Shown here in pieces: positions 11,383-64,000 of a stretch of 64,000 nucleotides of DNA. How positions within the stretch are numbered: the stretch's first letter is position 1; each line of letters starts with the position of its first letter. The notes below the pieces were generated by a model. The model had not been told where the DNA came from and made no database searches. It saw nothing but the letters and a program-made list of their open reading frames with translations. This stretch comes from Halomonas alkalicola. Lineage in GTDB: Bacteria > Pseudomonadota > Gammaproteobacteria > Pseudomonadales > Halomonadaceae. A program made the position numbers and the translations under genes. Location of the stretch: NCBI RefSeq assembly GCF_030704205.1, contig NZ_CP131913.1, positions 2,170,001 to 2,234,000 on the forward strand, written 5' to 3'.

Positions 11383-11418
11383 CACCGCCCCGGGTCACGA
11401 GAGTGGCCCGGGGCGGTG
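11383..11418. terminator. Bidirectional intrinsic terminator between nrdJb and the radical SAM gene
   Basis: A perfect 12-bp stem, CACCGCCCCGGG pairing with CCCGGGGCGGTG, around a 12-base loop, between two convergent genes. A short T-rich stretch (GCGTTTC) follows on the plus side. Confidence 0.7.
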
Positions 11419-11435
11419 GCGTTTCAGGCGGGGGC

Positions 11436-44318: not shown

Positions 44319-44358
44319 GCGTGCCGAACCGTCTAATCGGTCAAAGTTGGGGATAGCC

Positions 44359-46170: not shown

Positions 46171-48267
46171 ATGAAGAGAACCGATGCTGAAGCATTGCTG
46201 CGTACTGCGGTGGGAAACGCAGCCGCAAGCTTCCGTAGTGGCCAATGGGAAGCCATTGATGCTTTGGTAAATCAGCGCCAAAAGCTACTGGTGGTTCAAC
46301 GAACCGGGTGGGGCAAAAGCTCTGTCTATTTCATAGCGACCCGAATCATGCGTGATCAGGGCTATGGGCCCACCATCATTGTCTCGCCTTTGCTGGCCTT
46401 GATGCGTAATCAGATTGAATCAGCTCGAAGACTGGGTATTTACGCGATCACCATCAACTCTACCAACCATGATCAAGCGGAAGCGTTGATCCAGCAGGTA
46501 CATACAAACCAGGTGGATTGTTTGTTGATCTCCCCAGAAAAGCTGGCCAACGAGCAGTTTGTTGAGCAAGCGCTCCAGCCTATTCTGGATAACGTAGGGT
46601 TATTGGTTGTGGATGAAGCGCACTGTATCTCGGACTGGGGGCACGACTTTAGGCCGGATTATCGTCGCCTGCTCAATATTTTGCGCCAGATGCCCCCCAA
46701 CATGCCGGTATTAGGTACAACGGCCACCGCCAATGATCGGGTCATCACAGATGTTGTTGATCAGTTGGGTGATATTGAGGTGCTCCGCGGCCCCTTGGTT
46801 CGCGATAGCTTGTCTCTTCAAAACATTGCCCTTGCAGATCAGGCAAGTCGCCTCGCCTGGCTGTCAGAAACGATACCGACTCTGCAGGGGGCTGGGATCG
46901 TCTATGTGCTTACAAAGCGAGATGCAGAACAGGTAAGAAGCTGGCTGTTGAGTCAGGGAATTGATGCCAAGGCCTACTACAGCGGCATTGAGCATTCTGA
47001 TTTCGAGAACTCCGATCAGTACCGAGAGCATCTGGAAGATTTGCTGCTCAACAACCAGCTAAAAGTGCTTGTAGCCACAACGGCGCTGGGCATGGGGTAC
47101 GACAAACCAGATCTTCACTTCGTTATTCACTACCAAACACCGGGCTCCATCGTATCCTATTACCAGCAAGTAGGCCGGGCCGGACGCGGTATTGATCAAT
47201 CTCTCGGCATTCTACTTTCAGGCGCGGAAGATGAGCGTATCCACGACTTCTTCCGTCGCTCCGCATTCCCGAATCAATCGCAGATTAACCAGGTGCTTTC
47301 GGTTCTCGAAGACAGTGATGGCTTATCTGTACCGAAACTGGAAGAGCACTTGAATATGCGCAAAGGGCAAATCGAAAAAGTCCTTAAATTTCTGAGTGTG
47401 GAGAACCCTGCGCCTGTATACAAAGCGGGCAGCCAATGGACAAGAACACCGGTTGCTTATCAGCTAGATCATGACCAAGTCCAGCGGCTCACGAACATGC
47501 GAGAGCAGGAGTGGCAAGAAATCCAGGAGTACACGACAACTTCGGGCTGCTTGATGGAATATCTGCGAAGGTCTCTTGATGACCCGGAGGCGCAACCCTG
47601 TGGCAAGTGCGCTAACTGTCTTGGTGCGCCGCTGGTCAGTGCCTCGCCCGATCGCCAAAGAGTCATTGCTGCAGCGCAGTTCCTTCGCCACTCAGAATTC
47701 GTTTTCAAACCCAAGGTTCAAGTGGCCGCCAATGGGTTTCCGCGATACGGATTGCGAGGGAACCTGCCACAAAACCTCAGAGCGCAGGAAGGCAGAGTAC
47801 TTAGTCGGTGGGCTGACGCAGCATGGGGCGGTTTCGTCGAACAGGACAAACATGGGGGCTATTTCCGGGATGAATTAGTGGACGCCATGGCGGAAATGAT
47901 TCAGCAGCGTTGGCAGCCAACGCCACGGCCTGAGTGGGTCACCTGCGTACCCTCGCTCAAGCACCCCGAATTGGTGCCGGAGTTTGCGCGGCGGCTGGCG
48001 AATAAACTGGGTCTGCCATTCCATCCGGTAATCTCCAAAGTGCAGGATAACGAACCACAAAAACTACAGAACAACCGCTATCACCAGTGCAGCAACCTGG
48101 ATGGAGTGTTCGCGGTTGATGCAGGCCTCCCTTCCGGCCCAGTCCTATTGGTGGACGATGTCGTCGATTCCGGTTGGACCATGACCGTTCTGGCAGCCTT
48201 ACTTCGGCAACAAGGCAGTGGCGAAGTCTATCCGGTCGCTCTTGCCTCTTCTGCAAGGGGAGATTAA
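46171..48267 (+). CDS. rqlH: RecQ-like helicase fused to a phosphoribosyltransferase domain (RqlH/PsyrT)
   Basis: A 698-residue RecQ-family helicase: Walker A-like RTGWGKSS (about 43-50), DEAH box VVDEAHCISDWGHDFRPDYRRL, helicase motif VI QQVGRAGRG, and a zinc-binding region CLMEYLRRSL...CGKCANC. The C-terminal 150 residues contain a PRPP-binding motif VLLVDDVVDSGWT, a ComF-like phosphoribosyltransferase. This helicase-PRTase fusion followed by a DprA-like gene is the RqlHI/PsyrTA pair, described as a toxin-antitoxin-like, genotoxic and antiphage module. ATG with AAGGATG upstream. Intact. Confidence 0.88.
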   Translation: MKRTDAEALLRTAVGNAAASFRSGQWEAIDALVNQRQKLLVVQRTGWGKSSVYFIATRIMRDQGYGPTIIVSPLLALMRNQIESARRLGIYAITINSTNHDQAEALIQQVHTNQVDCLLISPEKLANEQFVEQALQPILDNVGLLVVDEAHCISDWGHDFRPDYRRLLNILRQMPPNMPVLGTTATANDRVITDVVDQLGDIEVLRGPLVRDSLSLQNIALADQASRLAWLSETIPTLQGAGIVYVLTKRDAEQVRSWLLSQGIDAKAYYSGIEHSDFENSDQYREHLEDLLLNNQLKVLVATTALGMGYDKPDLHFVIHYQTPGSIVSYYQQVGRAGRGIDQSLGILLSGAEDERIHDFFRRSAFPNQSQINQVLSVLEDSDGLSVPKLEEHLNMRKGQIEKVLKFLSVENPAPVYKAGSQWTRTPVAYQLDHDQVQRLTNMREQEWQEIQEYTTTSGCLMEYLRRSLDDPEAQPCGKCANCLGAPLVSASPDRQRVIAAAQFLRHSEFVFKPKVQVAANGFPRYGLRGNLPQNLRAQEGRVLSRWADAAWGGFVEQDKHGGYFRDELVDAMAEMIQQRWQPTPRPEWVTCVPSLKHPELVPEFARRLANKLGLPFHPVISKVQDNEPQKLQNNRYHQCSNLDGVFAVDAGLPSGPVLLVDDVVDSGWTMTVLAALLRQQGSGEVYPVALASSARGD

Positions 48268-48270
48268 TGA

Positions 48271-49650
48271 ATGCTCGCTGCTAAAACACAGGCAATCCTG
48301 TTACTGACCGCCTATTTTTCCAGGTCAACAAGCTCAGAAGCAAAGCCTCTCACGAATAAAGAGTGGGGGCGTTTTGCCTTCTGGTTGAAGAACCAGGAAA
48401 TGGTCCCCGAGGATCTCCTGACAGGGGACCTCAGTCAAAAACTGGCGGGATGGACAGACTCCAAGATTACATCCGACCGCATTCAAACCCTGCTCAATCG
48501 TGGGTCCGCCCTGGCAATGGCGATGGAAAAATGGACCCGCTCCGGCTTATGGGTGTTGACGCGCTCAGACAGTGACTACCCCAAACGTCTTAAAGCACGC
48601 CTCGGTAATGATGCACCCCCTGTCTTCTTCGGGTGTGGCAACCGCAATCTCTTGAACCAAGGTGGCATTGCTGTCATCGGCTCCCGTAAGACCTCTGACG
48701 CGGACCTTCAGTTTAGCCGCGATCTTGGAGCTAGGTCCGCAAACGATGGACGATCTGTCGTATCCGGCGGTGCAAAAGGCGTCGATGAAGCCGCCATGCT
48801 GGGTGCTCTTGAATCTGAAGGTACGGCAATTGGGGTTCTCGCCAATGACCTGCTGCGCGCCGCCACCTCCGTAAAGTACAGAAAGTACCTGATGGCGAAC
48901 AATCTGATTCTCCTCTCACCCTTTTATCCTGAGGCTGGTTTCAATGCGGGCAATGCGATGCAGCGCAACAAGTACATCTATTGCCTGTCGGATGCAGCCA
49001 TTGCTGTGCATTCCGGAAACTCAGGTGGAACCTGGAACGGGGTGCTAGAAAACATAAAGCACAACTGGGTACCCATGTGGATCAAGCCTACCGACGACCC
49101 GGAGGCCGGCAATGCCACACTGGTGCAAAAAGGCGCTAAATGGCTACCTGAAAATCTCGCTGAAATCGACCTTGACCATTTGCTGCGAACCGCAGATTCA
49201 TCTGCAGATCAGGGTGCTGACTTATTTGCTCAAAACCAGACAGAAACCGTGCCCGAGGTGACTGTAAACGAACCTATGGCTGATACGGGTCAACAAGAAG
49301 AAAACGAAGTGGCGTCGGATGAGGTTGCCAAAGAGACTGCTGAAGACGCTTCCAAGCCTTCACCGAAGCAGGAACACGCAACCCCCTCGCCGGTTTCGAG
49401 TGACCAATGCGAAGAAAAAACAGCTCTTACGCAGCTTTCCTTGTACGACCACTTTCTCCTGATGCTTAGAAATGAAACAGGCTCACCAAAAACCATTGAT
49501 GAATTGCTGGAAGCTACACAGCTTCACAAAACCCAGCTTACCGAATGGTTAAAACAGGCTGTCGCGGATGACAAGGTGACCAAGTTAAATCGCCCGGTTC
49601 GGTATCAGTGGGTGGAAGACAATCAGCGCAAGATGTTCGAGGATCAGTAA
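48271..49650 (+). CDS. rqlI: DprA/Smf-like nucleotide-binding protein (RqlI/PsyrA)
   Basis: A 459-residue protein with the DprA Rossmann core (about 90-300): YPKRLKARLGNDAPPVFFGCG, VIGSRKTSDADL, VVSGGAKGVDEAAMLGAL and LSPFYPEAGFNAGNAMQRN. An acidic, Pro-rich linker (about 315-385) and a small C-terminal winged-helix segment (about 390-450) follow. In the RqlHI pair this partner restrains the helicase. It starts 4 bp after rqlH. pglX follows 5 bp after its stop, so the pair is embedded in the BREX transcript. Confidence 0.86.
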   Translation: MLAAKTQAILLLTAYFSRSTSSEAKPLTNKEWGRFAFWLKNQEMVPEDLLTGDLSQKLAGWTDSKITSDRIQTLLNRGSALAMAMEKWTRSGLWVLTRSDSDYPKRLKARLGNDAPPVFFGCGNRNLLNQGGIAVIGSRKTSDADLQFSRDLGARSANDGRSVVSGGAKGVDEAAMLGALESEGTAIGVLANDLLRAATSVKYRKYLMANNLILLSPFYPEAGFNAGNAMQRNKYIYCLSDAAIAVHSGNSGGTWNGVLENIKHNWVPMWIKPTDDPEAGNATLVQKGAKWLPENLAEIDLDHLLRTADSSADQGADLFAQNQTETVPEVTVNEPMADTGQQEENEVASDEVAKETAEDASKPSPKQEHATPSPVSSDQCEEKTALTQLSLYDHFLLMLRNETGSPKTIDELLEATQLHKTQLTEWLKQAVADDKVTKLNRPVRYQWVEDNQRKMFEDQ

Positions 49651-49655
49651 TCTCC

Positions 49656-50746
49656 ATGGAAACTGCAAAACTTAAAAAGTTCGCCCAATTCGCTCGTCGC
49701 AGCCTCCTCGAACAGGTTACCGCCAAGCTCAAACTGGTACTAGCCGAAGAGAGTTCCGCCCGGCGAGAAAGGCCAAAGGCGATTAAAAAGCTGGAAGAGG
49801 CGGTAACAGGCCAAGGCAAAGAGCAGATTATCGAACGGGTGGCCTATATCTGGTTCAACCGCTTCTGTGCCCTGCGTTTTATGGACGTCAACCGTTACAA
49901 CCGCATTGGCATTGTTTCCCCTGCTGAGGGGCAGTTCCAGCCCGAGATCCTGGCTGATGCCAAAATGGGCCATATCGATGAAGAAATGGTCTCGGAGTCA
50001 ACCCGTCAAAAGATCTTCGCACTGCTGGACGGAAAGACACCCAGCCAGGACCCGCAGGGGGAAGCTTATCGCCTACTGGTCGTAGCTGCCTGTAACTACT
50101 GGTACAGCGCAATGCCGTTCTTGTTCGAGCGTATTGACGACTACACCGAGCTTTTGATGCCGGATGATCTGCTCTCAGGCAACTCAATCCTGGCCTATAC
50201 CCGCGAAGCCATGACGCCGGATGCCTGTAAAGATGTCGAGGTAATCGGCTGGCTGTATCAGTTCTATATCTCCGAGAAGAAAGACCAGGTATTCGCTGAT
50301 CTCAAGAAGAACAAGAAGATTACTCCCGAAAATATTCCTGCGGCCACCCAGCTTTTCACGCCGCACTGGATTGTGCGATACCTGGTGGATAACTCGCTCG
50401 GCCGCTTGTGGATGCTTAACAGACCAAATTCAGCCTTGGTGAACCAGATGGAGTATTACATTCCTCCGGAGGAGACTGAGGCCGATTTTCTGAAAATTGA
50501 AGGCCCGGAAGAGCTCAAGGTTTGCGACCCAGCCTGCGGCTCCGGCCATATGCTGACCTATGCTTTCGATCTGCTCTACGCCATTTATGAAGAAGAAGGC
50601 TACGAGCCGTCCGAAATCCCGGAAAAGATTCTGACACACAACCTTTACGGTATTGAGCTGGATGAGCGCGCCGGTGAGCTGGCCGCCTTCGCTCTGACCA
50701 TGAAAGCCCGAGCGCGTCAGCGGCGTTTTTTCAACAAAGGCATCAA
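49656..50746 (+). pseudogene. pglX: PglX (BREX adenine methyltransferase), N-terminal fragment
   Basis: PglX marks host DNA by N6-adenine methylation and gives BREX its specificity. This fragment of 363 codons begins METAKLKKFAQFARRSLLEQV and holds the SAM-binding motif DPACGSGHML (291-300) with LFTPHWIVRYLV before it. It ends inside codon 364, where an IS1380-family element is inserted; reading on into the IS gives a few foreign codons and a stop at 50771. Without the IS the gene continues in frame at 52472 (GIKPNICVLEKV). Confidence 0.93.
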
Positions 50747-52471
50747 CCCGCCTTATTCACGAGGGCGCTGATTGAGCGGTCTGAAGGTACTGGCTGTTGG
50801 CATTGCTTATCAGGATTCGCCTCTTCAGCGCGAGTGGCTGTTGAGTAATGCCAGAACGCAGCCCTTTTCCTACTTACTTATAGCTCTTTGGAATCAATGG
50901 CGGCCGTCCAAGCAGCCGTGATCGCCGACCGCCGCTCCGGTCGCTCGCTTTCTGATGCTGTGGTGGTCTCTCGCAGGAGCGTCAGCTCAGTGCGGTCAGC
51001 TTCGGTAGCCCCTTCAGCAGCGTCGGCCACCACTTGTCGGCGGCGGCACCCAGATGAACGGTGATTCGCCGAGCGTGCAGCCTCAGCGTGGCGGCGACCT
51101 TGAGCACCTGCTCGCGCATCCGGCTCAGGCTCCAGCCTTGTCGGGTTTGCCGCTCCAGGAGGCAGCGCAGGCCCATGCAGGACCTGGTAGGCGTAGAGAC
51201 TGAGCAGCAAGCTCACCTCGTTGCGCGCCATCACGTCCTGAACGGTGGAGGCGCCGCGATCGGTCGACGAGAGGTGCACGTCGAGCGCCGACTTCACTTC
51301 GCCCATGTGCGCCTCGGCGCTGCCGCGCTTGCGATAGAGTGCTAGGACCTTCTCTGGCGGCCAGTCGAACTTGCTGAGGTTGGTGACCAGGAAGAAGGCA
51401 TGCAGCAGCAGGTCATCGGGGCGCTCCTGCACGACCAGCACGACGCGCCGTGGTGCCGGCCAGGAACCGGCTTGGTACTCAAGGTCATGGCACCATTCTC
51501 GAGGCTGTTCAGGCGGTCGGCCGCGGGGCCGCTTCAGGTAGGGCGCCGCCAATTTTTGCAGGCCCTTGTGGCTGCGTAACCGGCCCAGATACTCGATGTC
51601 GCGCTCTTCCAGCGCCTCCAGCGTGTCGTTGTCGGTGAATCCGGCATCGATGCGCACCCGAACCTGGGCGCCAGTGCTCTCTCGTTGAGCCGCGTCACCA
51701 GATGGGGGATCCATGTATCGGCATTCTCAGCCGGGCCGGCGTTGCCCTCGCGTAGCAGGCCACCGACCATGTCGCCTGTTTCGGCCAGCGAGGCGACCAG
51801 CGGCGAGTAGATGCGGGTACCGTAAAGGCCATGGTAGGCCGAGCCACCTTGGTGACCGTGGACCTCGATCGGCAGGCCGTCGATGTCCAGCGTCAGCTGC
51901 TTGGGGCGCTCGCCGTTCTTCAGCGAGGTCAGGCGCCAGAGCACCAGCCGCAGCAGGCCTTCGTGCACGGCATCGATGTTGTCGTTGCGGCCGAGGCAGG
52001 TCAGCAGCCGCGACAGCGTGGCTTGAGACGGCCGGTCCTGCGCCAATGGCGTCGTCCCGCGCGCGTCGCTACAGGCCAACTGCCAGAGCGGGTCACGGCG
52101 CAGCGTGTCGGTATCGCTGAGATCGATCCAGCCCATCGCGCGCTGCAGCACCAGGGTGCGTAGCTGACTGCCAGGGAGTGGCGGATACGCAGCGGGTGAC
52201 GCGGATCGACCAGGTTGTCTTCGAGCGCCTCAATCACGCCGCTGTTGTCGAGGGCTTCACGCAGCAACAAAGCGCCGCTGTCGCTGGTGGTGGTGCGGTG
52301 GCCGCTCAGCTCGACACGGACAGAGCCGTTGCACGAGGGCGTCCAGGTGGATAGGCTTTCACCCATAGCGGATGGCTCCCTTGGATCAGGTTCTTGGCGG
52401 AACACACTGAATTTTCAAGAGGATACCATCCGCTATCTTCGTTTTCAGGCCGGTCTCATGAATAAGGCGGG
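50747..52471 (-). mobile_element. IS1380-family insertion sequence inside pglX
   Basis: 1,725 bp. Terminal inverted repeats CCCGCCTTATTCA at the left (50747-50759) and its complement at the right (52459-52471), flanked by a perfect 5-bp direct repeat ATCAA (50742-50746 and 52472-52476). One transposase gene on the minus strand, broken by frameshifts. Removing IS plus one ATCAA restores the pglX frame exactly. Confidence 0.92.
50982..52366 (-). pseudogene. IS1380-family transposase, frameshifted
   Basis: The reading starts at about 52366 (MGESLSTWTPSCNGSVRVEL) and passes through three frame changes before ending at 50982 (LKGLPKLTALS). The changes are near 52170 (after IRHSLA), near 51680 (after LVTRLNER) and near 51175 (YQVLHG/LRCLLERQ). 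All pieces belong to one IS1380/IS4-like DDE transposase (LTLDIDGLPIEVHGHQ, VRIDAGFTDNDTLEAL, RKRGSAEAHMGEVKSAL). Two of the shifts can be repaired by changing one base in a short homopolymer. Either the element has decayed or the consensus has errors. Confidence 0.88.
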
Positions 52472-53194
52472 ATCAAGCCCAACATCTGCGTGTTGGAAAA
52501 AGTTAGCTTCACTCCAGATGAACTGGAAGAGTACATGAGCGCCGTGGGCCGCGACCTGTTCACCCAGGGCTTACGTGAAACCTTGCAACAATTCGAGGAG
52601 GCTGACAACTTCGGCTCCCTGATCTTGCCCAAGCTTACCAACGTGACTGACGTGCTGGCCGAGCTGGAGACCAAGAATCTGGGTAGTAACCTGTTCCTGG
52701 CCGACACGCACAGCAAAGTACTGAAAGTACTGCGCATGGCCGAAGCCTTGAGCCCGCGCTACGCCGTGGTCGTCGCCAACCCGCCCTATATGGGCGGCAA
52801 GGGTATGAATGGACGGCTTGGCGCCTGGGCCAAGGAGAACTACCCAAAGAGCAAGTCCGACCTGTTTGCAATGTTCATAGAACGTAATCTGGATATGGCG
52901 GTGATTGGCGGTGCTGTCGCCATGATCACGATGCAGAGCTGGATGTTCCTGTCTTCTTTCGAGGCTTTGCGCGGTCGCATTCTCGATCAGCACACTATTT
53001 TGTCGATGGCCCATCTGGGCGCGCGAGCCTTTGACAGCATTGGTGGTGAAGTGGTCTCGACGACAGCATTCGTACTCGAAAACGCGCACAAGCCGCACTA
53101 TCGAGGGGCTTATCTCCGGCTGGTCGATGGCAATTCGGAAGCCGAGAAGATGGCCATGATGACTCAGGCTATTGAGCAGGGTCGTTCGACATGA
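52472..53194 (+). pseudogene. pglX: PglX, middle fragment with NPPY catalytic motif
   Basis: 240 codons continuing PglX after the IS: GIKPNICVLEKVSFTPDELEE, then VVVANPPYMGGKGMN (the NPPY motif of N6-adenine methyltransferases) and ITMQSWMFLSSFEALR. It ends TQAIEQGRST followed by a stop at 53192-53194 that overlaps the ATG of the reverse transcriptase gene (ATGA). No start codon of its own is evident before 52490. Together with the N- and C-parts it makes a full-length PglX of about 1,170 residues. Confidence 0.9.
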
Positions 53195-56100
53195 TTAGCC
53201 TAGAAAGCTACGGACTTGCCTACAGAAAGGCAAAGGTCGATCTGTATTACTCCTCCCATGCGTCCCTTGATGCTATCGCAGACTACGAGGAAGACCTCTA
53301 TGAAAATCTCGCAGCGTTGCAGGCGCAATATAATGGCGACGACGAATCCTGGGTTACTTCTTCGGAGTTCCTGGGTAGTTGGACGCTGGCCACGAAATCC
53401 GTGGATATGTCACCTTGGCAAAAATACCGAGAAGTACATGGTAGTGGTTTGATCTTCTCATCTCCCGCCGATGAATGGGAGTACGCTTGTACTTTGTTGG
53501 CGGGCCAAAAGGAACCGGAGAAGCTTGTCGCCGAATTTCGTGTAATGGCGCAGTGCAGTATGGATTTCCACGTGTTGTCCTCTTTGTGGATGATGGAGGT
53601 CGGTCATCTGTTTGACGCCAAGCTCACAGGTTGCGCCTATGGCAACCGCTTGCGGCGCACACAGGACGGAAAACGCATCAACCCATTGTCGTTGGGTTCG
53701 TTCGCGCCCTACCTGAAGCCGTTTCGTGATTGGCGTGATCAAGGCATCTCCACCATGCGCACTGCGTTGGATGAGGGCAAAAAAATTGTTGCACTTACGG
53801 CCGATGTCAGCTCCTTCTATCACGAGCTAAACCCTGGCTTTATGCTGGATCCAGAGTTCCTGGAGACTGTTCTGAAGCTGGAACTCAATGAAGAACAAGC
53901 GAAGCTTCACCGCCTGTTTATCCGTGCCTTGCAGGCTTGGGCTGAGGCAACGCCTTTGGGAAAAGGGCTACCGGTCGGGTTGCCCGCCTCTGCTGTGGTG
54001 GCCAATGTGGCACTGATCGAACTGGACCGAATCATCGAACGACAGGTTGCTCCCCTGTATTACGGTCGCTATGTGGATGACATTCTTTTGGTCATGGAAA
54101 ATGGCGCTGGGTTTCGCTCCACGGTTGAGCTTTGGGAGTGGCTGTTTGCACGCTCCGGCGGAAAGCTGGGCTGGGTGAACGCTCAAGAGCAGAGCCAAAT
54201 CCGCTTTCAGCCTGATTACCTGAAAAATGGCAAAAACAAAAGTAGGATCTATTTCGCCAATGCTAAAAATAAAGTGTTCATGCTGGCTGACGAGCCTGGC
54301 AAAACGCTGGTTGATGCCATTGCACACCAGATTCACGAACGTGCCAGCGAATGGCGGGCGATGCCCCGATTACCGCGGTCTGCCGGCCATGTTAGTACTG
54401 ACCTTCTAGCTGCCACACAAAGCGATGGGGAGGCCGCCGACAACTTACGTAAAGCCGATGCGTTGACCATGAGGCGCGCCGGCTTCGCCATCAAGCTACG
54501 CGACTTCGAGGCGTATGAGCGGGATTTGCATCCCGATGCCTGGCAAGCGCATCGCCGGGCTTTCTTTCGCGCCTTTATTCAGCATGTTTTGGTGCTGCCT
54601 CATTTTTTCGACTTGGCTGTTTACTTGCCGCGAGTGATTCGATTGGCCACAGCGTGTGAGGATTTTGGCGATCTGCGCAGAATCATCGACGCGCTGGAAC
54701 GCCTTTGCCAGCAAGTCGGTGAACATTGTCATGTTGAGATAAAAGCTTGTCCATCTGCCAGCGCGCCATCCGAGGCTGAGATCATCGCCTGCTGGCAGGA
54801 AAAGCAATTTTCCACCATTCGCGAAAGTATCACGGCGGCCTTCCCTCCACGCTTGTCCAGGGCGGGCCGGCAGGCATGGGAGGCGCATATGGCGGATTGC
54901 CACCCTACGCTTGATGTCGAAACCATGCTCTCTTGGCCCGTGTCGGCCAAAGCCTTTCAGTCGCAGCATGCACGGCTTTTCTCCTTTGACCTGGCACATA
55001 TGCCGTTCCGCTTTATGGGATTACCCAAAGAGATGATCGCGCAACGCGGAATTCCCGCCAAGAAAACCGTGCTCAATTGTGCTCAAGGCTCAGAGCTGCT
55101 GCCTGATACAGCAGTAGAAGGCATCCAGCGATTGGCAAAGTGGATAAAAATTAAGGGACTCCCACATGGGCTGCTGTTTGCCACCCGCCCCTTCAATTTG
55201 GCGGAACTCTTCGTCTTGCACAAAGACGCCTACACCGAACAAGGGCAAGCCGCTCTGCACAGCGTCGTTCTGGCCTTGCGCGGCTTCAGTCTCGGCGACA
55301 AAACACCCCGTTTCGACAAGAACGGTGTGCTTCAGATTCCCGATGGGGCTGAGCCTCGCAAATACAACATCGCCGTCTCCAGCTGGCAGACGCGGATCGA
55401 AAGCTGGGCGGCAGCCGTCACGCGCATGCCGGACCCCGATGCTGACCGTTATGCGCGGCTATGCCACTTGCTCGATAGTTTAATCGCACAGCCCCGGCAT
55501 AGTCGTTACCTTATCCTGCCGGAGTTGGCGCTTCCCGCGCATTGGTTTATGCGAATCGCCCGCAAGCTGCAAGGTCGAGGCATTTCGCTGATTACAGGCA
55601 TTGAGTACCTCCATGCGGGTAAGTCACGGGTGCGCAATCAGGTGTGGACAGCTCTGTCGCATGATGGCCTGGGCTTTCCCTCTATCATGATCTACCGGCA
55701 AGACAAACAGCGCCCCGCTTTGCACGAAGAGGTGGAGCTGAAGCGACTCGCCGGAGCAGAGATGAAGCCAGGATCACTTTGGAACAAGGGTGTTCCGCCC
55801 GTTATACGCCACGGCGACTTCCACTTTGCTCTGCTGGTGTGCAGCGAATTGACCAACATCAGCTATCGCGCGGCCCTGCGGGGCAAAGTAGATGCCCTGT
55901 TTGTACCAGAGTGGAACCAGGACACCGAAACCTTCAATGCGCTTGTAGAATCCGCTGCGCTGGACATCCATGCCTACATCATCCAATGCAACGACCGACA
56001 GTACGGGGATAGCCGAATACGAGCGCCCTACAAAAACAGCTGGAAACGCGATGTACTGCGGGTCAAGGGTGGTGTGACCGACTATTGCGTGATCGGAGAA

Positions 56101-56229
56101 ATTGATGTGAAGGCTTTGCGCCAGTTCCAGAGTAGCCATCGTTCGCCCACACAACCCTTCAAGCCGGTGCCTGACGGGTTCTCGATCGAGCATAGCCGAA
56201 AAGTGCTTCCGACAGGAGGAGACGAATGA
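53191..56229 (+). CDS. Reverse transcriptase-nitrilase fusion, DRT type 1 (UG1) defence protein
   Basis: A 1,012-residue protein. The N-terminal half is a reverse transcriptase: motif A ALTADVSSFYHELN (201-214, D205), motif B GLPVGLPASAVVANVAL (259-275) and motif C RYVDDILLV (293-301). The C-terminal part (about 725-1000) is a nitrilase-like domain with LPELALP (E778) and LLVCSELTN (C884), two of the catalytic triad. This architecture defines DRT1/UG1 antiphage RTs. It appears intact. It is placed inside pglX: its start overlaps the stop of the middle fragment, and its stop overlaps the next small gene. The ribosome site is weak, so translation probably relies on coupling. Confidence 0.9.
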   Translation: MISLESYGLAYRKAKVDLYYSSHASLDAIADYEEDLYENLAALQAQYNGDDESWVTSSEFLGSWTLATKSVDMSPWQKYREVHGSGLIFSSPADEWEYACTLLAGQKEPEKLVAEFRVMAQCSMDFHVLSSLWMMEVGHLFDAKLTGCAYGNRLRRTQDGKRINPLSLGSFAPYLKPFRDWRDQGISTMRTALDEGKKIVALTADVSSFYHELNPGFMLDPEFLETVLKLELNEEQAKLHRLFIRALQAWAEATPLGKGLPVGLPASAVVANVALIELDRIIERQVAPLYYGRYVDDILLVMENGAGFRSTVELWEWLFARSGGKLGWVNAQEQSQIRFQPDYLKNGKNKSRIYFANAKNKVFMLADEPGKTLVDAIAHQIHERASEWRAMPRLPRSAGHVSTDLLAATQSDGEAADNLRKADALTMRRAGFAIKLRDFEAYERDLHPDAWQAHRRAFFRAFIQHVLVLPHFFDLAVYLPRVIRLATACEDFGDLRRIIDALERLCQQVGEHCHVEIKACPSASAPSEAEIIACWQEKQFSTIRESITAAFPPRLSRAGRQAWEAHMADCHPTLDVETMLSWPVSAKAFQSQHARLFSFDLAHMPFRFMGLPKEMIAQRGIPAKKTVLNCAQGSELLPDTAVEGIQRLAKWIKIKGLPHGLLFATRPFNLAELFVLHKDAYTEQGQAALHSVVLALRGFSLGDKTPRFDKNGVLQIPDGAEPRKYNIAVSSWQTRIESWAAAVTRMPDPDADRYARLCHLLDSLIAQPRHSRYLILPELALPAHWFMRIARKLQGRGISLITGIEYLHAGKSRVRNQVWTALSHDGLGFPSIMIYRQDKQRPALHEEVELKRLAGAEMKPGSLWNKGVPPVIRHGDFHFALLVCSELTNISYRAALRGKVDALFVPEWNQDTETFNALVESAALDIHAYIIQCNDRQYGDSRIRAPYKNSWKRDVLRVKGGVTDYCVIGEIDVKALRQFQSSHRSPTQPFKPVPDGFSIEHSRKVLPTGGDE

Positions 56230-56510
56230 CCATTGCCCAACAATCCTTCGGGAGCCGCCATGACTGCCTGTCTCATCATGCCACCCAATTTGGCCGAACC
56301 TTCGAACAGCCTGTTCTGGTTCAGGTGAATTCACTGTCCGCGCACCATCGACCAAAATCGGATGATCCTGATTTCTGGGCCGTGTGGTCGGGTCGAGACA
56401 GCGACGGCGAGATGGTTGAGCGCAAGGTGGATTGGAAAACGATTGCTGATGACTGGCAACAGATCAGTGTGCCAGCGCAGGCGCAGGGTTTGGAGACTAA
56501 CGATGAGTAA
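56226..56510 (+). CDS. 94-residue protein of the DRT1 cassette, unknown function
   Basis: A 94-residue acidic protein with a hydrophilic sequence and a WAVWSGRDSDGEMVERKVDW segment; no family recognised, no membrane helix, no signal. It has a strong ribosome site (AGGAGGA, 56214-56220), overlaps the RT stop by 4 bp (ATGA) and overlaps the start of the pglX C-terminal fragment by 8 bp. These couplings make it a real gene and a likely partner of the RT; its role is open. Confidence 0.7.
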   Translation: MTIAQQSFGSRHDCLSHHATQFGRTFEQPVLVQVNSLSAHHRPKSDDPDFWAVWSGRDSDGEMVERKVDWKTIADDWQQISVPAQAQGLETNDE

Positions 56511-58254
56511 CGTTCAAGCAAGTAATGCCGAGCAGAGTATGGAAAAGCTTTTTTTCCGTGCTTCTGCAGAAGATTTTAGAAAAATTTCAGGCAGCCCGAT
56601 TGCATACTGGGTTAGCTCAGCAGTACGGAAAGCTTTCGAGACTGGAGAGCCATTCGGAAGAATTGCAACACCTAGACAAGGGTTAGCTACTGGCCGCAAT
56701 GAAGTTTTTCTCCGCGAATGGCACGAGATTGATTTTACAAACATTGGTTTCGGATTTGCCTCCAGAGAGCAAGCGCAATCCTCAGGATTAAGATGGTTTC
56801 CATATAATAAAGGAGGAGAATGGCGAAAGTGGTATGGAAACAATGAGTTTGTTGTTGACTGGCAGGACGATGGCGCTCGCATCCGAGACTTCAAGGATGA
56901 AAATGGGAAGGTGAGGTCTAGACCTCAAAATACCGACTACTACTTCCGAGAAGGAATCACCTGGGCTGACATTACAACGAACTCCTTTGCAGCAAGATAT
57001 TCCCCTCGGGGTTTCATTTTTGATGTAAAGGGATCTTCAGGTTTCCCGGAAGCTTGCAAGCTGAAATCTGTTCTTGGACTGATGAACTGCAAGCTGATGT
57101 ACGATTTCATGCTCATCCTAAATCCAACCTCAACATTTCAGGTTGGTGATATGGCCAGAGTGCCCTACATCAACCTGAAGGATGAGGCTCAAAAGATAGA
57201 TCATAACGTTGAGAAGCTTGTAGATTTCGGGAAGGCTGACTGGGACTCTTTCGAAACGGCGTGGGATTTCACTGTTTTCCCTTTGCTGCATGCCGACTTT
57301 ACCCAGCCAACGCTGAAAACTAGCTATCAGAAACTCCGTGCCTATTGGAGCGAGATGACGTTGGAGATGCAGCGTCTGGAAGAAGAAAACAACCGAGTTT
57401 TTATCGATGCGTACGACCTGCAGGATGAGCTGACCCCCGAAGTGCCGCTGAACGAAATCACCCTCACCTGTAACCCCCATTACCAGTACGGTAACAATAA
57501 AAGTGAGGACGAGCTTGAAGCGCTTCTGCTGGCCGACACCATGCGTGATCTGATCTCCTACGCCGTAGGCTGTATGTTTGGCCGCTACGCGCTAGACAAG
57601 CCGGGACTGATCCTGGCCAATCAGGGAGATACCATCGAGGACTACCTGAAGCAGATCCCGGAGCCCAGCTTCCCGGCAGACGATGACAACGTCATCCCCA
57701 TGCTCGACGGTGACTGGTTCACAGACGACATCACCGAGCGTTTCCGTGAATTTCTGCGCATCGCCTTTGGCGAAGAGCACTATGACGAAAACCTCCGCTT
57801 TGTCGAGCAGGCACTGGGTAAGGACATCCGAAAGTACTTCCTGAAGGACTTCTACAACGACCACGTGCGCCGTTACAAGAAGCGACCCATCTACTGGCTG
57901 TTCTCCTCACCCAAGGGCTCGTTCAATGCGTTTATCTATATGCACCGCTACCAGCCCCACACCGTGGGCACGGTGCTGGAGTATCTGCGCGATTTCAAAG
58001 ACGAAAAGCTGCAAGCCCGGAAAAACCATCTGGAGGCCGTCAGTATCAGCGCCGGGGCCTCCCAGGGTGATAAGACCAAGGCCCTGAAAGATATCGAGAA
58101 GATCAACAAAATACTCGCCGAGCTGGATGACTACGAGCGGGATGTGCTTTATCCCTTGGCTACAGAGCAGGTGGAAATCGATCTCGATGACGGGGTGAAG
58201 GCCAACTATCCGAAATTTGGCGACGCTTTGAAGAAAATTCCAGGCTTGTCCTGA
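56503..58254 (+). CDS. pglX: PglX, C-terminal fragment (target-recognition and helical tail)
   Basis: 583 codons carrying the rest of PglX: FFRASAEDFRKISGSPIAYWVS starts the conserved C-part, followed by a target-recognition region and a helical end (DYERDVLYPLATEQVEIDLDDGVK). The ATG at 56503 has GGAG nine bases upstream, so it could be made as a separate polypeptide. The stretch 56,503 to about 57,150 is clearly more AT-rich than both sides, as if the specificity region came from another donor. No catalytic motif lies in this part. Confidence 0.88.
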   Translation: MSNVQASNAEQSMEKLFFRASAEDFRKISGSPIAYWVSSAVRKAFETGEPFGRIATPRQGLATGRNEVFLREWHEIDFTNIGFGFASREQAQSSGLRWFPYNKGGEWRKWYGNNEFVVDWQDDGARIRDFKDENGKVRSRPQNTDYYFREGITWADITTNSFAARYSPRGFIFDVKGSSGFPEACKLKSVLGLMNCKLMYDFMLILNPTSTFQVGDMARVPYINLKDEAQKIDHNVEKLVDFGKADWDSFETAWDFTVFPLLHADFTQPTLKTSYQKLRAYWSEMTLEMQRLEEENNRVFIDAYDLQDELTPEVPLNEITLTCNPHYQYGNNKSEDELEALLLADTMRDLISYAVGCMFGRYALDKPGLILANQGDTIEDYLKQIPEPSFPADDDNVIPMLDGDWFTDDITERFREFLRIAFGEEHYDENLRFVEQALGKDIRKYFLKDFYNDHVRRYKKRPIYWLFSSPKGSFNAFIYMHRYQPHTVGTVLEYLRDFKDEKLQARKNHLEAVSISAGASQGDKTKALKDIEKINKILAELDDYERDVLYPLATEQVEIDLDDGVKANYPKFGDALKKIPGLS

Positions 58255-58274: not shown

Positions 58275-60155
58275 ATGGCAGGTGAGTACGAAAAGGCCAT
58301 TACTATCAAAGACGCGATTGATGCCATTAATCAGCGAGACTATCTGTTGCCGGCAATACAGCGGAAGTTCGTCTGGAGCAGCCATCAGATCTGCGTGCTG
58401 TTCGACTCCATCATGCGGGGTTACCCCATCAACACATTCATGATGTGGGAAATCAAAGATGATGGCATCAAGAACGACTACAAGTTCTACGAGTTCCTGA
58501 AATCCTACTGCCAACGTTTCAGTGAGGAAAACCCTCACGTCTCAACCAATGCGAGTTATAAGGATTTCAGGGCAGTCATCGATGGCCAGCAGCGTCTTAC
58601 ATCCCTCTACATTGGGCTTTGCGGTACATATGCGTACAAGAAGCCAAGAGTTTGGTGGCCTAGCACTCGCGACGACAAGGTGTTACCGCCTCGCAAACTG
58701 TATCTGGACCTGAAAGCACCACTGGAATCGGAAGACGATGAATCACTGATGTATTACAACTTCCGATTCCTCACAGACCGGCAATATAAAGACTCATTGG
58801 CTGCAGAGACCCCGGCCCACCACTGGCTTTGCATGCATGAAATACTCAGGTATCCACACCACGAAAGTAGCGATGATGTGCTTTTGGAGGTGGTAATGCC
58901 AGAGCTCGAGCGACGAGGACTCAGCACAAATACATTTTCCCGAAAGACACTACTGAAAGTTTATGACGTGATCCGATCCCAGCGGATCATTCACTACTTC
59001 AATGAGAACAGTCAGCAAATCGACCATGTTTTAGATGTATTTATCCGAACCAACAGCGGAGGCACCAAGCTGGACTTTTCTGACCTGCTGATGTCAATTG
59101 CCGTTGCCCACTGGGATGGAGATTTTCGGAAAGAACTTGACGACTTGACCCAGCACATCCATCAGAACACGGAGATGGGTTTCTACATAGAGCGTGACTG
59201 GTTGTTGAAAACCTGCTTGATGCTCACGGAAGCCGATGTCCGTTTCAAAGTGAGAAATTTCAAGGGCGAGCAGGTTGCCCGAATCCAGCAAGAGTGGCCT
59301 GATATCAAAGAGTGTATTACCGAAACATTCCGCCTCGTGCGGCGGTTCGGTATTACGCCGCAGTCCCTGACCTCCAGAAACGCTGTTATTCCGATCTGTT
59401 ACTACTTGTATAAAAAATGCTCTTCAGGAGAGCCACTCTTCAGAAAAATTAATAATCTAGCGAAATGCCATGAGCAACGTGCGGTAATCAGCCAGTGGTT
59501 TTACATGGCGCTGTTGAAAGGGGTCTTCGGCGGTCAGGCTGACTCCATTTTAAGCAGCATGAGGGATGTTCTAGTAAAACACCTCACCGACGATACCTTC
59601 CCGTTGCCCGCCATCATTGAGCGTTACAAAGCGACGAACAAGGATCTGCGTTTCGATGAAGAAACCCTCGATAAACTGCTGGAAACGCAGCACGGAGAGG
59701 GGCGCTGCCGCGCGTTACTGCATTTGCTGTTCCCAGAAATGAACGTTTCAGAGGTTTTTCACATTGATCACCTTCACCCGAGGGCAGCTTTTGACAAGAA
59801 ATTGCTAAATAAAGCTAGCTTCCTGCAGGATGACGAGCAGTTGATGGCGTTTTATCGTAATCCAGTCCACTGGAATGCGATCCCCAATCTTCACCTATTG
59901 AATCATTCGCAAAACCTTGCGAAGAAAGACCGCCCTTTGAAGGAATGGCTTTCTGACCAGAATGTGCACCTGACCCCTAGTGATCTGCTCATCGAGAATG
60001 TGGATCTGGAATTTACTTCATTCAAGGCGTTCTATCTGGCAAGGCGAGAAGCCCTAAAACAGCGCTTGATATCCCGAGTTTACATGTCCGCGCCGTTGGC
60101 GGCGGAGAGTGTGGCTGACAGTGAAGACGAAGAGCTGGAAGAGGTGGTCTCATGA
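58275..60155 (+). CDS. DUF262-DUF1524 protein, GmrSD/BrxU-type restriction enzyme
   Basis: A 626-residue protein. The N-terminal DUF262 (ParB/Srx-like NTPase) has YLLPAIQRKFVWSSHQI and VIDGQQRLTSLYIGL; the C-terminal DUF1524 HNH-type nuclease has VFHIDHLHPRAAF and NLHLLNHSQNLAKKDRPLKEW. Single-chain GmrSD enzymes cut modified phage DNA. BrxU lies at the same place, between pglX and pglZ, in the Escherichia fergusonii BREX locus, which supports a BrxU-like call. AGGAG precedes the start; its stop overlaps the pglZ start (ATGA). Intact. Confidence 0.87.
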   Translation: MAGEYEKAITIKDAIDAINQRDYLLPAIQRKFVWSSHQICVLFDSIMRGYPINTFMMWEIKDDGIKNDYKFYEFLKSYCQRFSEENPHVSTNASYKDFRAVIDGQQRLTSLYIGLCGTYAYKKPRVWWPSTRDDKVLPPRKLYLDLKAPLESEDDESLMYYNFRFLTDRQYKDSLAAETPAHHWLCMHEILRYPHHESSDDVLLEVVMPELERRGLSTNTFSRKTLLKVYDVIRSQRIIHYFNENSQQIDHVLDVFIRTNSGGTKLDFSDLLMSIAVAHWDGDFRKELDDLTQHIHQNTEMGFYIERDWLLKTCLMLTEADVRFKVRNFKGEQVARIQQEWPDIKECITETFRLVRRFGITPQSLTSRNAVIPICYYLYKKCSSGEPLFRKINNLAKCHEQRAVISQWFYMALLKGVFGGQADSILSSMRDVLVKHLTDDTFPLPAIIERYKATNKDLRFDEETLDKLLETQHGEGRCRALLHLLFPEMNVSEVFHIDHLHPRAAFDKKLLNKASFLQDDEQLMAFYRNPVHWNAIPNLHLLNHSQNLAKKDRPLKEWLSDQNVHLTPSDLLIENVDLEFTSFKAFYLARREALKQRLISRVYMSAPLAAESVADSEDEELEEVVS

Positions 60156-62665
60156 GCAGCCAGATTCAAACGGCTCTGACGCGACTGTTTGATAAGCACC
60201 GGATCATTTTCTGGTACGACACCAAGCAAGAGCTGCGCGGTGATTTCGAGACGGTTTCCATCCCGCACGTGGAGAAGCTGGAAATCGCCAACAACGAGTA
60301 CAGTCTGAAATATCGTGTTCTGCGGGAGTCACCCGACCAGAAGTTCCTTCTGTACAAAGAAGGACCGCAACCGGAGGATCTGGATAACTGGTTGCTGGAT
60401 GTGCAGTTGGCCCACGGCGAGTTCCGGACTGACCAGGTGGCTATCTGGCTGTCCGAACTGGAGCTGGGACTGGAGTTCGCCGAGGTGGCCCAGGCCCACG
60501 CGGATTTTTTCCAGGCGATCAAGCGCAAGGAGGCGTTGAAGAAGCTGCTGAAGCCGGACGACACTGCCGGTCAGCTTCGCCTGAAGATGCTGGCTGTATG
60601 TGCCGGTAGTGAGCCCCGTATGGACTCGGTGGTGGAAACCCTGCTGCAGCAACTCGCGGAAGACCGAGATGATGGCATCCGGTTGATTGAGCGCTGTGGT
60701 CTGGATAGTTTCCTGTGGGAACAACTGACCCGTTTCTACGGCTACGAGGCCAGTGAGCCGAGCCTGCGAGACTTCGTGATTGAGCTGTTCAAGTCTTGCT
60801 ACGCCATGACTGTTGTTGGAGAGCGTACGGATGGCGAGGTCAAACTGACCGGCGACGCCCTGGTGTTCCTCAAACGCTGGAAAGACAGCCGGCAGTTCGA
60901 GCAGGGGTTTGAAACCCTGTCTGCCGAGTGTGCCGGGGTGCTCGGCATTGAGCAGGACCTGGGCAAGCGGGACTTCCGGGACCTGGTTGAGCTGGACTAC
61001 TTCCGGCTAATCGACCAGAAGATTATCAGTGACCTGGTGCGGGCGGTGGTTAGCCGCACAGTTACCAGCGGCGATGTGGCGCTGTGGGTGCGGCAGCGGC
61101 GCCAGGGCCATTGGTACGGGGAGTTCCGCCACCTGTATGAAGCCATTGAGTTTGCGGCCCGCTTTGTCCAGATGCTGGGTGAGGCTCGTCTCACCATGGA
61201 CAGCCTCTCCGACGGCGTTCAGCGATACAGCCGCACCTGGTTCCAGTTGGACCAGCTCTACCGCAAGTTTACCTACCATGTGCGCATGTCCGGCCAGGCA
61301 TCGTTGATGGGCGAGCTCAGTGAGCAGGTGGAGAACCTGTATTCCAACAACTACCTGCTCAAGCTGGGCGATGGCTTCCAGGTTCATGTCGACGCCGCGC
61401 CGCGCTGGGAGGCCTATCCGGTCGTTCAGCAAAAGGCCTTTTTCGAGCACTGGGTTCGCCCGTACCTGCGCAAGGACAAACGGATTTGTGTGGTCATTTC
61501 CGACGCCATGCGCTATGAGATTGGTGATGAGCTGCTGGGCCTTATCCGGCAGGAAGATCGCTACAGCGCGGAGCTTGAACCGGCACTCTCGACCCTTCCC
61601 AGCTATACCCAGCTCGGTATGGCGGCGCTGCTGCCCAACAAGTCCTTGGCGATCGCCGACAACGACACCGGTACGGTACTGGTGGATGGCCAAAGCTCTC
61701 AGGGCACGGTCAACCGTACCAAAATCCTGCAGGCCGCCTTGGATGGTCGGGGCCAGGCCGTCAAGGCGGAGGATTTTATGCAGCTCAACCGGGAAGACAG
61801 CCGTGAGCTGCTCAAAGGTAATGATGTGCTGTACATCTACCACAACCGCATCGATCACACTGGCGACAAGATGCATTCAGAGGGGCAGGCCTTTGAAGCC
61901 GCAGAACAAACCCTGGATGACCTGATTCGTCTGATCAAGAAGCTCACGGCGGCCAACGCCAATAACCTGCTGATCACCGCAGATCATGGCTTTATTTACC
62001 AGAACCGTGAGCTGGATGAGAGTGATTTCCTGGGCGATGCCGTTTCTGGCGATGATATTCGCTACCGGGACCGTCGGTTCGTGCTGGGTAAGGGGCTGTC
62101 CGCCTCTCCGGCCTTCCATCACTTCTCGTCTGAGCAGCTTGGGCTGGATGGCGAGATGGAAGTGCAGATTCCTAAGTCCATCAACCGGCTGCGCCTTAAA
62201 GGCTCTGGCAGCCGCTTTGTGCATGGCGGCGCATCCCTTCAGGAGGTTGTGATTCCGGTCCTGAAGGTTAACAAGAAGCGCCAGAGTGATGTCAGCGCCG
62301 TTGAGGTCGACATCCTCCGGGGGGCCAGCTCGGTGATTACTTCCGGCCAACTGGCGGTCACCTTGTATCAGTCCGGACCGGTTACCGAGAAAGTACAGCC
62401 TCGCCACCTGCGGGCCGGAATTTACACCCAGTCAGGGGAGTTGATTTCGGACAGTCACGAGCTGTCGTTTGACCTGACCTCGGAGAACCCCCGCGAGCGG
62501 GAGCTTCAGGTGCGCTTCGTGCTGAGCCGCAAGGCGGATGAGGCCAATGGCCAGGAGGTTTTCCTAAAGCTGGAAGAACAGCACGCCGGCACCTCCCACT
62601 ACAAGGAATACAAGTCGCTCAGGTATTTGATGCGGCGGTCCTTTACCAGCGATTTTGATTTCTAA
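60152..62665 (+). CDS. pglZ: BREX protein PglZ (alkaline phosphatase-like)
   Basis: An 837-residue type 1 BREX PglZ. The N-terminal part is family-specific (SIPHVEKLEIANNEYSLKY); the phosphatase-like domain (about 430-680) has metal-binding segments ICVVISDAMRYEIGDEL and NLLITADHGFIYQN. The C-terminal region holds the conserved FVHGGASLQEVVIPVL. The target of its hydrolase fold is not known. It is coupled to the gene upstream. Intact. Confidence 0.94.
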   Translation: MSSQIQTALTRLFDKHRIIFWYDTKQELRGDFETVSIPHVEKLEIANNEYSLKYRVLRESPDQKFLLYKEGPQPEDLDNWLLDVQLAHGEFRTDQVAIWLSELELGLEFAEVAQAHADFFQAIKRKEALKKLLKPDDTAGQLRLKMLAVCAGSEPRMDSVVETLLQQLAEDRDDGIRLIERCGLDSFLWEQLTRFYGYEASEPSLRDFVIELFKSCYAMTVVGERTDGEVKLTGDALVFLKRWKDSRQFEQGFETLSAECAGVLGIEQDLGKRDFRDLVELDYFRLIDQKIISDLVRAVVSRTVTSGDVALWVRQRRQGHWYGEFRHLYEAIEFAARFVQMLGEARLTMDSLSDGVQRYSRTWFQLDQLYRKFTYHVRMSGQASLMGELSEQVENLYSNNYLLKLGDGFQVHVDAAPRWEAYPVVQQKAFFEHWVRPYLRKDKRICVVISDAMRYEIGDELLGLIRQEDRYSAELEPALSTLPSYTQLGMAALLPNKSLAIADNDTGTVLVDGQSSQGTVNRTKILQAALDGRGQAVKAEDFMQLNREDSRELLKGNDVLYIYHNRIDHTGDKMHSEGQAFEAAEQTLDDLIRLIKKLTAANANNLLITADHGFIYQNRELDESDFLGDAVSGDDIRYRDRRFVLGKGLSASPAFHHFSSEQLGLDGEMEVQIPKSINRLRLKGSGSRFVHGGASLQEVVIPVLKVNKKRQSDVSAVEVDILRGASSVITSGQLAVTLYQSGPVTEKVQPRHLRAGIYTQSGELISDSHELSFDLTSENPRERELQVRFVLSRKADEANGQEVFLKLEEQHAGTSHYKEYKSLRYLMRRSFTSDFDF

Positions 62666-62677
62666 GGGTTATAGCCA

Positions 62678-64000
62678 ATGAGTACGCTTGACCAAAAGAT
62701 CAACGAACACTTCCCCGGGTTGGTGGTGCGCAAAGACCTGGTGAAAACGGTCAAGGGCAATGCCATCGTCCCCTCATATGTGCTGGAGTATCTGCTCGGC
62801 CAATACTGCGCCACTAACGACGAGGCCACGATCCAAACCGGGATTGAAACGGTCAAGGAGATTCTGGCCAAGCACTATGTCCACCGCAACGAGGCCGGGC
62901 TGGTGCGCTCGAATATCAAGGAAAAGGGGCGCTACAAGGTCATCGATAAGATCAGCGTGGCCCTGAATGAGAAGACGGATGCCTACGAGGCGCAGTTTTC
63001 CAACCTGGGAATCAAGAAGGTGTTGGTGGATTCTGGGACCGTGAAGGCCCACCCCAAACTGCTGGTAAGCGGCGTCTGGTGCATTGCGGATATCGAATAC
63101 GTATTTTCTGAAGACCAGAACGTCAGCCCCTGGATTCTGTCCACCCTCAAGCCGATTCAGCTATCTCACTTCGACTACGACGCCTACGTTGCCGCGCGGC
63201 AGCAGTTCAGCACCGATGAGTGGATTGACCTGCTGATACAGAGTATCGGCTTTAACCCGGAGATGTTCGGACGGCGCAGCAAGCTGACGCAACTGGTCCG
63301 ATTGATTCCGTTCTGCGAACGGAACTACAACCTGATCGAACTTGGCCCCAAGGGGACGGGTAAATCCCACGTTTACTCCGAATTCTCGCCCCATGGGATC
63401 CTGGTATCCGGTGGTGAAGTCACTGTACCCAAGCTGTTTGTGAATAACTCCAGCGGCAAAATCGGCCTGGTGGGCTACTGGGACTGCGTAGCTTTTGATG
63501 AGTTTGCCGGCAAGCAAAAGCGCGTCGACAAGGCCCTGGTCGACATCATGAAGAACTACATGGCCAATAAGTCCTTCTCCCGGGGCGTGGAAACCCTGGG
63601 CGCCGAGGCGTCCATGGTGTTCGTGGGGAACACCCGGCATACCGTTCCGTACATGCTGAAGCATTCGGACCTGTTCGATGAGCTGCCGGACAAGTTCTAT
63701 GACTCTGCCTTCCTCGACCGGATCCACTTCTACATCCCCGGGTGGGAGGTCGACATCATCCGGGGCGAGATGTTCTCCGACGGCTATGGCTTCGTGGTGG
63801 ACTACCTTGCAGAAATCCTGCGCTCGATGCGGAACTACGATTATTCCGATCAGTACCGGGAGCACTTTACCCTCTCTTCGGATATCTCGACCCGTGACCG
63901 GGACGGTATCAACAAGACCTTTTCCGGCTTGATGAAGATCCTGTTCCCCCAGGGCGGAGCAACCAGGGATGAGGTTGAAGAAGTGCTGCGTTTTGCCATC
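62678..64000 (+). CDS. brxL: BREX protein BrxL (Lon-like AAA+), 3' end outside the window
   Basis: 441 codons before the right edge. The N-terminal domain (DQKINEHFPGLVVRKDLVK) is BrxL-specific; the AAA+ core has Walker A GPKGTGKS, Walker B VAFDEFAG and sensor VFVGNTRHTV. The Lon-protease-like C-terminus is missing because the window ends. BrxL is a DNA-binding AAA+ ring that is the likely effector of type 1 BREX. It begins 12 bp after pglZ. Confidence 0.94.
   Translation, partial: MSTLDQKINEHFPGLVVRKDLVKTVKGNAIVPSYVLEYLLGQYCATNDEATIQTGIETVKEILAKHYVHRNEAGLVRSNIKEKGRYKVIDKISVALNEKTDAYEAQFSNLGIKKVLVDSGTVKAHPKLLVSGVWCIADIEYVFSEDQNVSPWILSTLKPIQLSHFDYDAYVAARQQFSTDEWIDLLIQSIGFNPEMFGRRSKLTQLVRLIPFCERNYNLIELGPKGTGKSHVYSEFSPHGILVSGGEVTVPKLFVNNSSGKIGLVGYWDCVAFDEFAGKQKRVDKALVDIMKNYMANKSFSRGVETLGAEASMVFVGNTRHTVPYMLKHSDLFDELPDKFYDSAFLDRIHFYIPGWEVDIIRGEMFSDGYGFVVDYLAEILRSMRNYDYSDQYREHFTLSSDISTRDRDGINKTFSGLMKILFPQGGATRDEVEEVLRFAI

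Follow-up and report, generated by a model that had tools for sequence, protein, structure and literature searches.

The window, that is, the whole 64,000-nucleotide stretch of Halomonas alkalicola DNA analysed here, belongs to a genome of one contig (3,611,010 bases) and carries the full type 1 BREX gene set, brxA, brxB, brxC, pglX, pglZ, and brxL, in a single operon. Within this operon, pglX is present as two halves, and the N half is cut by an insertion sequence (IS). The gene order is brxA, brxB, brxC, an AlbA-like gene, PsyrT, PsyrA, the pglX N half, an RT-nitrilase gene, a 94-codon frame (ORF94), the pglX C half, a BrxU-type gene, pglZ, and brxL. The features are as follows.

39471-40085, + strand: brxA (PADLOC BrxA, 2.5e-91).
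40082-40693, + strand: brxB (PADLOC BrxB, 3.9e-72).
40737-44318, + strand: brxC (PADLOC BrxC PDLC02479, 1931 bits).
44260-46029, + strand: ATP-binding, AlbA-like accessory gene between brxC and pglX, also found in the relative L016.
46171-48267, + strand: PsyrT, RecQ-like (PADLOC PsyrT, 1019 bits).
48271-49650, + strand: PsyrA, DprA-like (PADLOC PsyrA, 538 bits).
49650-50746, + strand: first piece of the pglX N half, interrupted by the IS; it carries the SAM motif and the helical domain (PADLOC PDLC02525, positions 1-363 of 607).
50747-52471, - strand: IS1380-like insertion sequence (PF13701).
52472-53194, + strand: second piece of the pglX N half, with the NPPY motif and the natural C-terminal end (PADLOC PDLC02525, positions 368-593 of 607; aligns with BrxX 437-635).
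53191-56229, + strand: UG5-type RT-nitrilase, 1012 aa (PADLOC PDLC03780, 1054 bits).
56226-56510, + strand: ORF94, 94 aa, homologous to the tail of HerA/DUF87 ATPases (PADLOC HerA, positions 629-684 of 686).
56503-58254, + strand: pglX C half, 583 aa with its own start, comprising the target-recognition and C-terminal domains (aligns with BrxX 641-1195).
58275-60155, + strand: GmrSD/BrxU-type gene, HEC-05 (PF03235; HEC-05, 727 bits).
60152-62665, + strand: pglZ (PADLOC PglZ, 1144 bits).
62678-64000, + strand: brxL, extending past the window end (L266:1179-3230 in the same genome, BrxL, 1220 bits).

The domains and motifs of PglX and their order are those of PglX/BrxX in type 1 BREX systems of Salmonella (8c45/8q56) and E. 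coli (9ewz), which have the same full gene set. The solved PglX is one chain of ~1200 aa, whereas the window encodes two chains, split at a hinge with genes between them; the uninterrupted ~1200 aa chain that serves as a criterion for type 1 BREX is absent. A preliminary description of this DNA had placed the end of pglX at 53194 and its resumption at 56503, with an intact RT-nitrilase gene and a 94-codon frame between the two parts and junction overlaps of 4, 4, and 8 bp. The open reading frames bear out each of these points, and one defence gene does lie inside the coding sequence of another. The description did not mention the IS at 50747-52471 in the upstream part of pglX.

The IS is flanked by a 5-bp target duplication, ATCAA, at 50742-50746 and 52472-52476. 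Its transposase is in three frames, and the copy is a few bases longer than most. The genome holds 14 full copies of at least 99% identity, the window copy included, and in all eight copies compared the IS ends and 5-bp duplications are present. The IS is a recent event in the N half, separate from the split. With its N half broken, the PglX of this strain is probably inactive, and since the genome holds no second match to the C half elsewhere, BREX modification has probably been lost.

PglX is divided at the hinge between its methyltransferase and target-recognition domains, at positions equivalent to BrxX 635/641. The loops of this hinge, which lie between two "jaws" of BrxX, have been assigned to residues 638-675 (PMC11842806). 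When aligned to intact PglX, as the preliminary description had proposed, the joined parts are continuous and fit PglX models without loss (positions 621/619 of PDLC02521). The N half in the window terminates in QGRST, which had been taken for the point where a longer protein was broken. A database search with the N half of another split locus (L061), covering proteins of 0.55-1.75 times the query length and by design excluding whole PglX, points to a natural end instead. The best 120 of 7990 scored proteins are all 602-613 aa long and carry both NPPY and DPACGSGH; the tail is exactly AQGRAA in 59 of them and a close variant in most others. Half-length PglX models of 607 and 593 positions already exist in PADLOC. 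Databases name such stand-alone N halves "BREX-1 PglX", and annotations should be read with this in mind. The C half, modelled alone (pLDDT 71), matches BrxX structures with TM scores of 0.74-0.80 and corresponds to the lower half of BrxX.

Both PglX halves and the RT are under purifying selection. Between close pairs of loci, the N half has a dN/dS of 0.06-0.10, except for 0.22 in L025/L029, where its tails are unlike; the RT has 0.06-0.125, and the C-terminal domain (the final 300 codons of the C half) 0.08-0.175. ORF94 gives 0.23 between the window and L016. These values come from a simple counting method, and dS is high in some pairs. All nine other split loci that were translated have each half as a full-length open frame.

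The RT-nitrilase is matched best over its full length (residues 2-1010) by the UG5-nitrilase model PDLC03780, at 1054 bits against 81 bits for Drt1a, and the name DRT1 given to it earlier has to be withdrawn. UG1, the class of DRT1, and UG5 are listed as separate classes (PMC8934634). Both join an RT to a C-terminal nitrilase, but the sequence match to the solved DRT1, 9yfd, is weak (E 1.3e-8). The predicted model of the RT-nitrilase (pLDDT 82) matches, domain by domain, nitrilase-fold enzymes and the DRT4, DRT9, UG15, and Abi RTs; 9yfd is not among the 50 fold-search matches listed. Residues Y294-V-D-D of the RT and E778, K839, and C884 of the nitrilase, which we take from their families to be the active-site residues, are invariant in 13 aligned diverse relatives. 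A database RT 97% identical to that of the window carries the label Marinobacter.

In DRT1, template-free, protein-primed DNA synthesis activates the nitrilase and leads to abortive infection (PMC13275509). In most split loci the RT gene has an overlapping or abutting neighbour at either end, which leaves little room beside it for a separate non-coding template RNA; a template-free mode would be the simplest reading for the UG5 RT as well. Unlike its studied relative, the UG5 RT-nitrilase is found nested in pglX and behind type I restriction-modification (RM) genes.

ORF94 has 58 homologous database proteins, itself included, and a stand-alone protein family of ~94-99 aa equals the tail of HerA/DUF87 ATPases. 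On four plasmids examined, the match to ORF94 is either the tail of a HerA-like gene or unannotated, with SIR2 nearby in two. These contexts suggest a relic of a HerA tail or a small relative of it as the putative identity of ORF94, and the view that it is part of an RT cassette is rejected.

The arrangement recurs. A scan of a species-level genome collection gave 51 RT-nitrilase loci from named genomes. When these were searched with the BREX proteins of the window, 12 showed the RT preceded by a pglX N half and followed by a C half (L016, L023, L024, L025, L027, L029, L040, L045, L053, L057, L059, and L061), the same cassette that the preliminary description had suggested looking for, although it had treated the window as the site of a one-off insertion event. 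A C half lies directly downstream of the RT at three more, of which L042 and L060 end too soon upstream and L049 has another gene there, and three loci (L032, L038, and L065) have the RT in a BREX operon with a whole pglX. Nine carry the RT behind type I RM genes, several directly after hsdS (L018, L022, L026, L028, L036, L044, L046, L051, and L052). Altogether, 27 of the 51 lie in BREX or behind type I RM genes. Neither kind of gene was detected at the remaining 24 within the examined flanks, some of them short, so that the RT does not require PglX. In L065, the RT-nitrilase between whole pglX and pglZ (9986-13007) is in two overlapping frames, a possible frameshift. Just upstream of the RT-nitrilases in L019 (1026-4421) and L020 (732-4133) are large genes of 1131-1133 aa with no PADLOC match at 1e-8.

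The 12 split loci come from Pseudomonadota, Verrucomicrobiota, Kiritimatiellota, and one MAG labelled Melainabacteria; a search of relatives gave two further split genomes, of which one duplicates the L045 record. The upstream gene overlaps the RT by 4 or 8 bp in nine of the 12, and the C half starts -4 to +2 bp after the RT in 10. Some automated neighbour picks were replaced by individual reading: the upstream pick in L024 was a spurious reverse frame, and the downstream picks in L016, L057, and L060 were not the true next starts. Recurrence in such distant bacteria makes the arrangement look like a built-in gene design and not one accidental insertion. The closest locus, L016, has an RT 95% identical to that of the window, with the same bases at the junction of N half and RT and the same gene order after the RT. 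An assembly error placing the RT in pglX is therefore very unlikely, also given the recurrence in other genomes.

For a base rate, genomes were sampled with the C half as query, independently of the RT. Among 390 genomes of the order, 31 have a C-half match, and the 27 full-length loci comprise four split (the window's own genome, G771, G096, and G085) and 23 whole; G771 is the genome of L016 and G096 that of L045. A phylum sample of 398 genomes adds one split locus (in G939) among seven new full-length ones, and 78 genomes sampled around G939 yield no new locus. In these samples whole PglX is the usual form, and splitting with cargo is a minority form. An RT is present in four of the five split genomes with cargo from these pglX-drawn samples, the window's own included, while G939 lacks it. 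On viral contigs, 28 pglX loci were found, 27 of which cover the hinge, with a gap there in none of the 27; four first flagged as possible splits are continuous across the hinge, being short or interrupted at other places. N-half matches occur in 305 of 72,556 plasmid records, and the two examined among the matches listed are both whole. One locus, L150 (G176), has pglX in several frames around the hinge and target-recognition domain and looks decayed.

The gap between the halves also holds other genes. An HEC-02A/B pair stands beside the RT in L023, L025, and L061; L024 has a related pair, L029 an AAA gene, and L027 Shedu beside a trace of an HEC-02 ATPase. In L146, the split locus of G939, the cargo is PARIS (AriA- and AriB-like genes) together with an AlbA-like gene, and an RT was not found within the 12.2 kb examined. 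An RT is present at 13 of the 14 two-sided split loci with cargo other than that of the window (the 12 of the 51-locus set and that of G085, but not L146), 13 of which were found via the RT search. PARIS is also embedded in the Salmonella BREX island, where it gave no response to Ocr; elsewhere PARIS responds to Ocr, and Ocr binds PglX (PMC11341690). It is by this comparison of PARIS and Ocr that the nested module may be seen as a back-up to BREX.

PglX also occurs as two adjacent genes with nothing between them, at L151:8583-12373, L267:6015-9856, and L268:5778-9583 (genomes G446, G004, and G099). The N chains are 630-633 aa and the C chains 633-647 aa, the genes overlap by 4 bp, and the C parts are distant matches at 24-29% identity. 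The neighbour of the pair is a BrxC gene in L151; in L267 and L268 it is a gene of similar size. L151 is matched in PADLOC by PglX half models of 640 and 682 positions and by a fused model of 1332, and G004 and G099 have a whole PglX elsewhere in the genome as well. These adjacent halves in three distant BREX loci indicate that a two-chain PglX can exist without an insertion, and they support the idea that the chains work apart.

The split PglX is polyphyletic. In a tree of 64 PglX rows (15 split and 49 whole), the split label takes six changes, at least four of which are forced by well-supported branches. In a tree of the C-terminal domain with 35 rows, forcing the 12 split rows into one clade carries a cost of 95.5 log units; such a clade, and with it a single origin, is rejected (p-AU 1.3e-4). 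These trees use alignable regions only, the one with 35 rows was built by a quick method, and some of the changes may stem from recombination. In the RT tree, from which RT sequences of 850 aa or less were left out, the RTs of split-pglX loci are interspersed with others; duplicate copies of a record were removed before tree building. From the tree results, either the same hinge has been used more than once or split cassettes have moved between PglX lineages by recombination.

Comparison of the window with L016 shows where the protein changes. The aligned DNA is 93-94% identical, apart from the first piece of the N half (87%) and the end of the C half (88%), and PsyrTA and the BrxU-type gene were not found in L016 although the remaining aligned DNA is mostly at this level. 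Within the C half, identity per block is 25-55% over the first 300 alignment columns and 83-97% over the remainder. Among close pairs, defined by a C-terminal-domain identity of at least 0.88, all eight split pairs have a methyltransferase piece 0.77-0.97 identical and a target-recognition domain 0.35-0.46 identical, these pairs being non-independent and from one part of the tree. The methyltransferase piece reaches 0.75 in only two of 29 close whole pairs (median 0.49), with a median of 0.35 for the target-recognition domain, and 14 mixed pairs resemble the whole pairs. In whole pairs, the second methyltransferase part and the target-recognition domain mostly differ together, whereas the divergence of split pairs sets in with the C-half gene.

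The locus is probably best explained as a type 1 BREX with a two-chain, HsdM/HsdS-like PglX, into which a UG5 RT-nitrilase is nested as an accessory defence gene. PglX would be genetically split at the hinge between its methyltransferase and target-recognition halves, with the gap holding the co-encoded RT-nitrilase. In relatives with intact halves, both would probably be translated in a coupled manner from a shared transcript and assemble into a functional PglX; the preliminary description had likewise allowed that PglX may work as two chains. The C half would then act as an exchangeable chain resembling a type I specificity subunit, and the RT-nitrilase would probably act alone, as a protein-primed module of the abortive-infection type that backs up BREX. 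Separate, co-encoded modification and specificity chains, as in type I RM, are found here at the level of architecture. Against a two-chain reading, expression of the C-terminal domain by itself failed for Salmonella PglX (PMC11341690). A stronger version, which we hold to be rather doubtful, joins two proposals: that splitting at the hinge is how one-chain BREX methyltransferases have convergently become two-subunit, type I-like enzymes with a constant modification chain and an exchangeable stand-alone specificity chain, and that the suicide modules between (UG5 RT-nitrilase, PARIS, and HEC-02) are co-translated guards that fire when phage proteins disable PglX.

The hinge could instead be a tolerated landing site in defence islands, where the halves reassemble and the nested genes are cargo with no functional tie to PglX. 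This has a real but less than even chance of being right. The varied contents of the slot (an HEC-02 pair, Shedu with the trace of an HEC-02 ATPase, PARIS with an AlbA-like gene, and the HerA-tail frame), the occurrence of the RT without BREX, and the cargo-free pairs all speak for it, but the tight gene overlaps do not, and neither does the prevalence of the RT at split loci with cargo, 13 of which were found through the RT, nor its presence in four of the five such genomes in the pglX-drawn samples. A more drastic possibility is that the RT-nitrilase landed in pglX and destroyed it, leaving a decaying BREX with the C half as a remnant. The interrupted N half in the window speaks for it, as do the 14 IS copies, which indicate a bout of transposition in this genome; but the IS is a separate event with a clean duplication, the halves of other split loci are open and under purifying selection, the length of the N half is constant, and the split recurs in several host groups, all of which make such a history improbable. 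The related suggestion in the preliminary description, that PglX had been traded for the RT, is at odds with the purifying selection on both halves in the lineage, even if the IS has probably inactivated PglX in this strain.

The preliminary description also proposed insertion in this lineage by short homology at GAGCAG, leaving readable, coupled halves. The hexamer is present on both sides of the cassette in the window, and the halves do fit PglX models without loss. In 46% of shuffles, however, such 60-base ends share a word of at least six bases. Of 13 split loci, the window alone has GAGCAG at both ends (three have it on the N side and five on the C side), and of 16 whole relatives inspected near the join, none has it on both sides. 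As the split also predates this lineage, this origin is highly improbable. At L057, an 8-base word is shared between the ends, a length reached by 3.7% of shuffles, and short homology is thus possible at some loci.

Type I RM offers a close parallel: modification and specificity reside in separate chains, and the operon contains a further defence gene. There, hsdM and hsdS are naturally separate genes, while PglX is usually a single protein, and PrrC is another gene embedded with them. TgvAB in Vibrio is likewise embedded with hsdM/hsdS (PMC11411939). The "guilt-by-embedding" HEC/PDC genes and PARIS of the Salmonella BREX island belong to the same cargo families seen here, HEC-02, HEC-05, Shedu, and PARIS, but the relevant portions of these reports concern genes within gene clusters, whereas here they lie inside the coding region of one protein (PMC12988326, PMC11411939, PMC11341690). 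In Antarctic cyanobacterial MAGs, two truncated pglX genes that together make up a full gene are presented as a truncation, with no mention of a nested RT-nitrilase in the part of the report that deals with them (PMC9716671). The main text of a 2026 BREX survey does not contain "split", "nitrilase", or "reverse" (PMC12839542). No published description of this recurrent type 1 BREX form was found in the literature searched, the main 2022 UG/Abi survey being outside its scope, and an earlier note of the BREX link is possible.

Defence genes thus recurrently nest inside one core BREX gene, at one structural hinge, and selection keeps both halves. Two questions can now be tested. One is whether an M and S pair has arisen from a methyltransferase that carried its specificity in a single chain; the other is whether abortive modules have a tie to the enzyme around them. 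The recurrence also links the little-studied UG5 RT-nitrilases, at 27 of 51 loci, to methylation-based defence.
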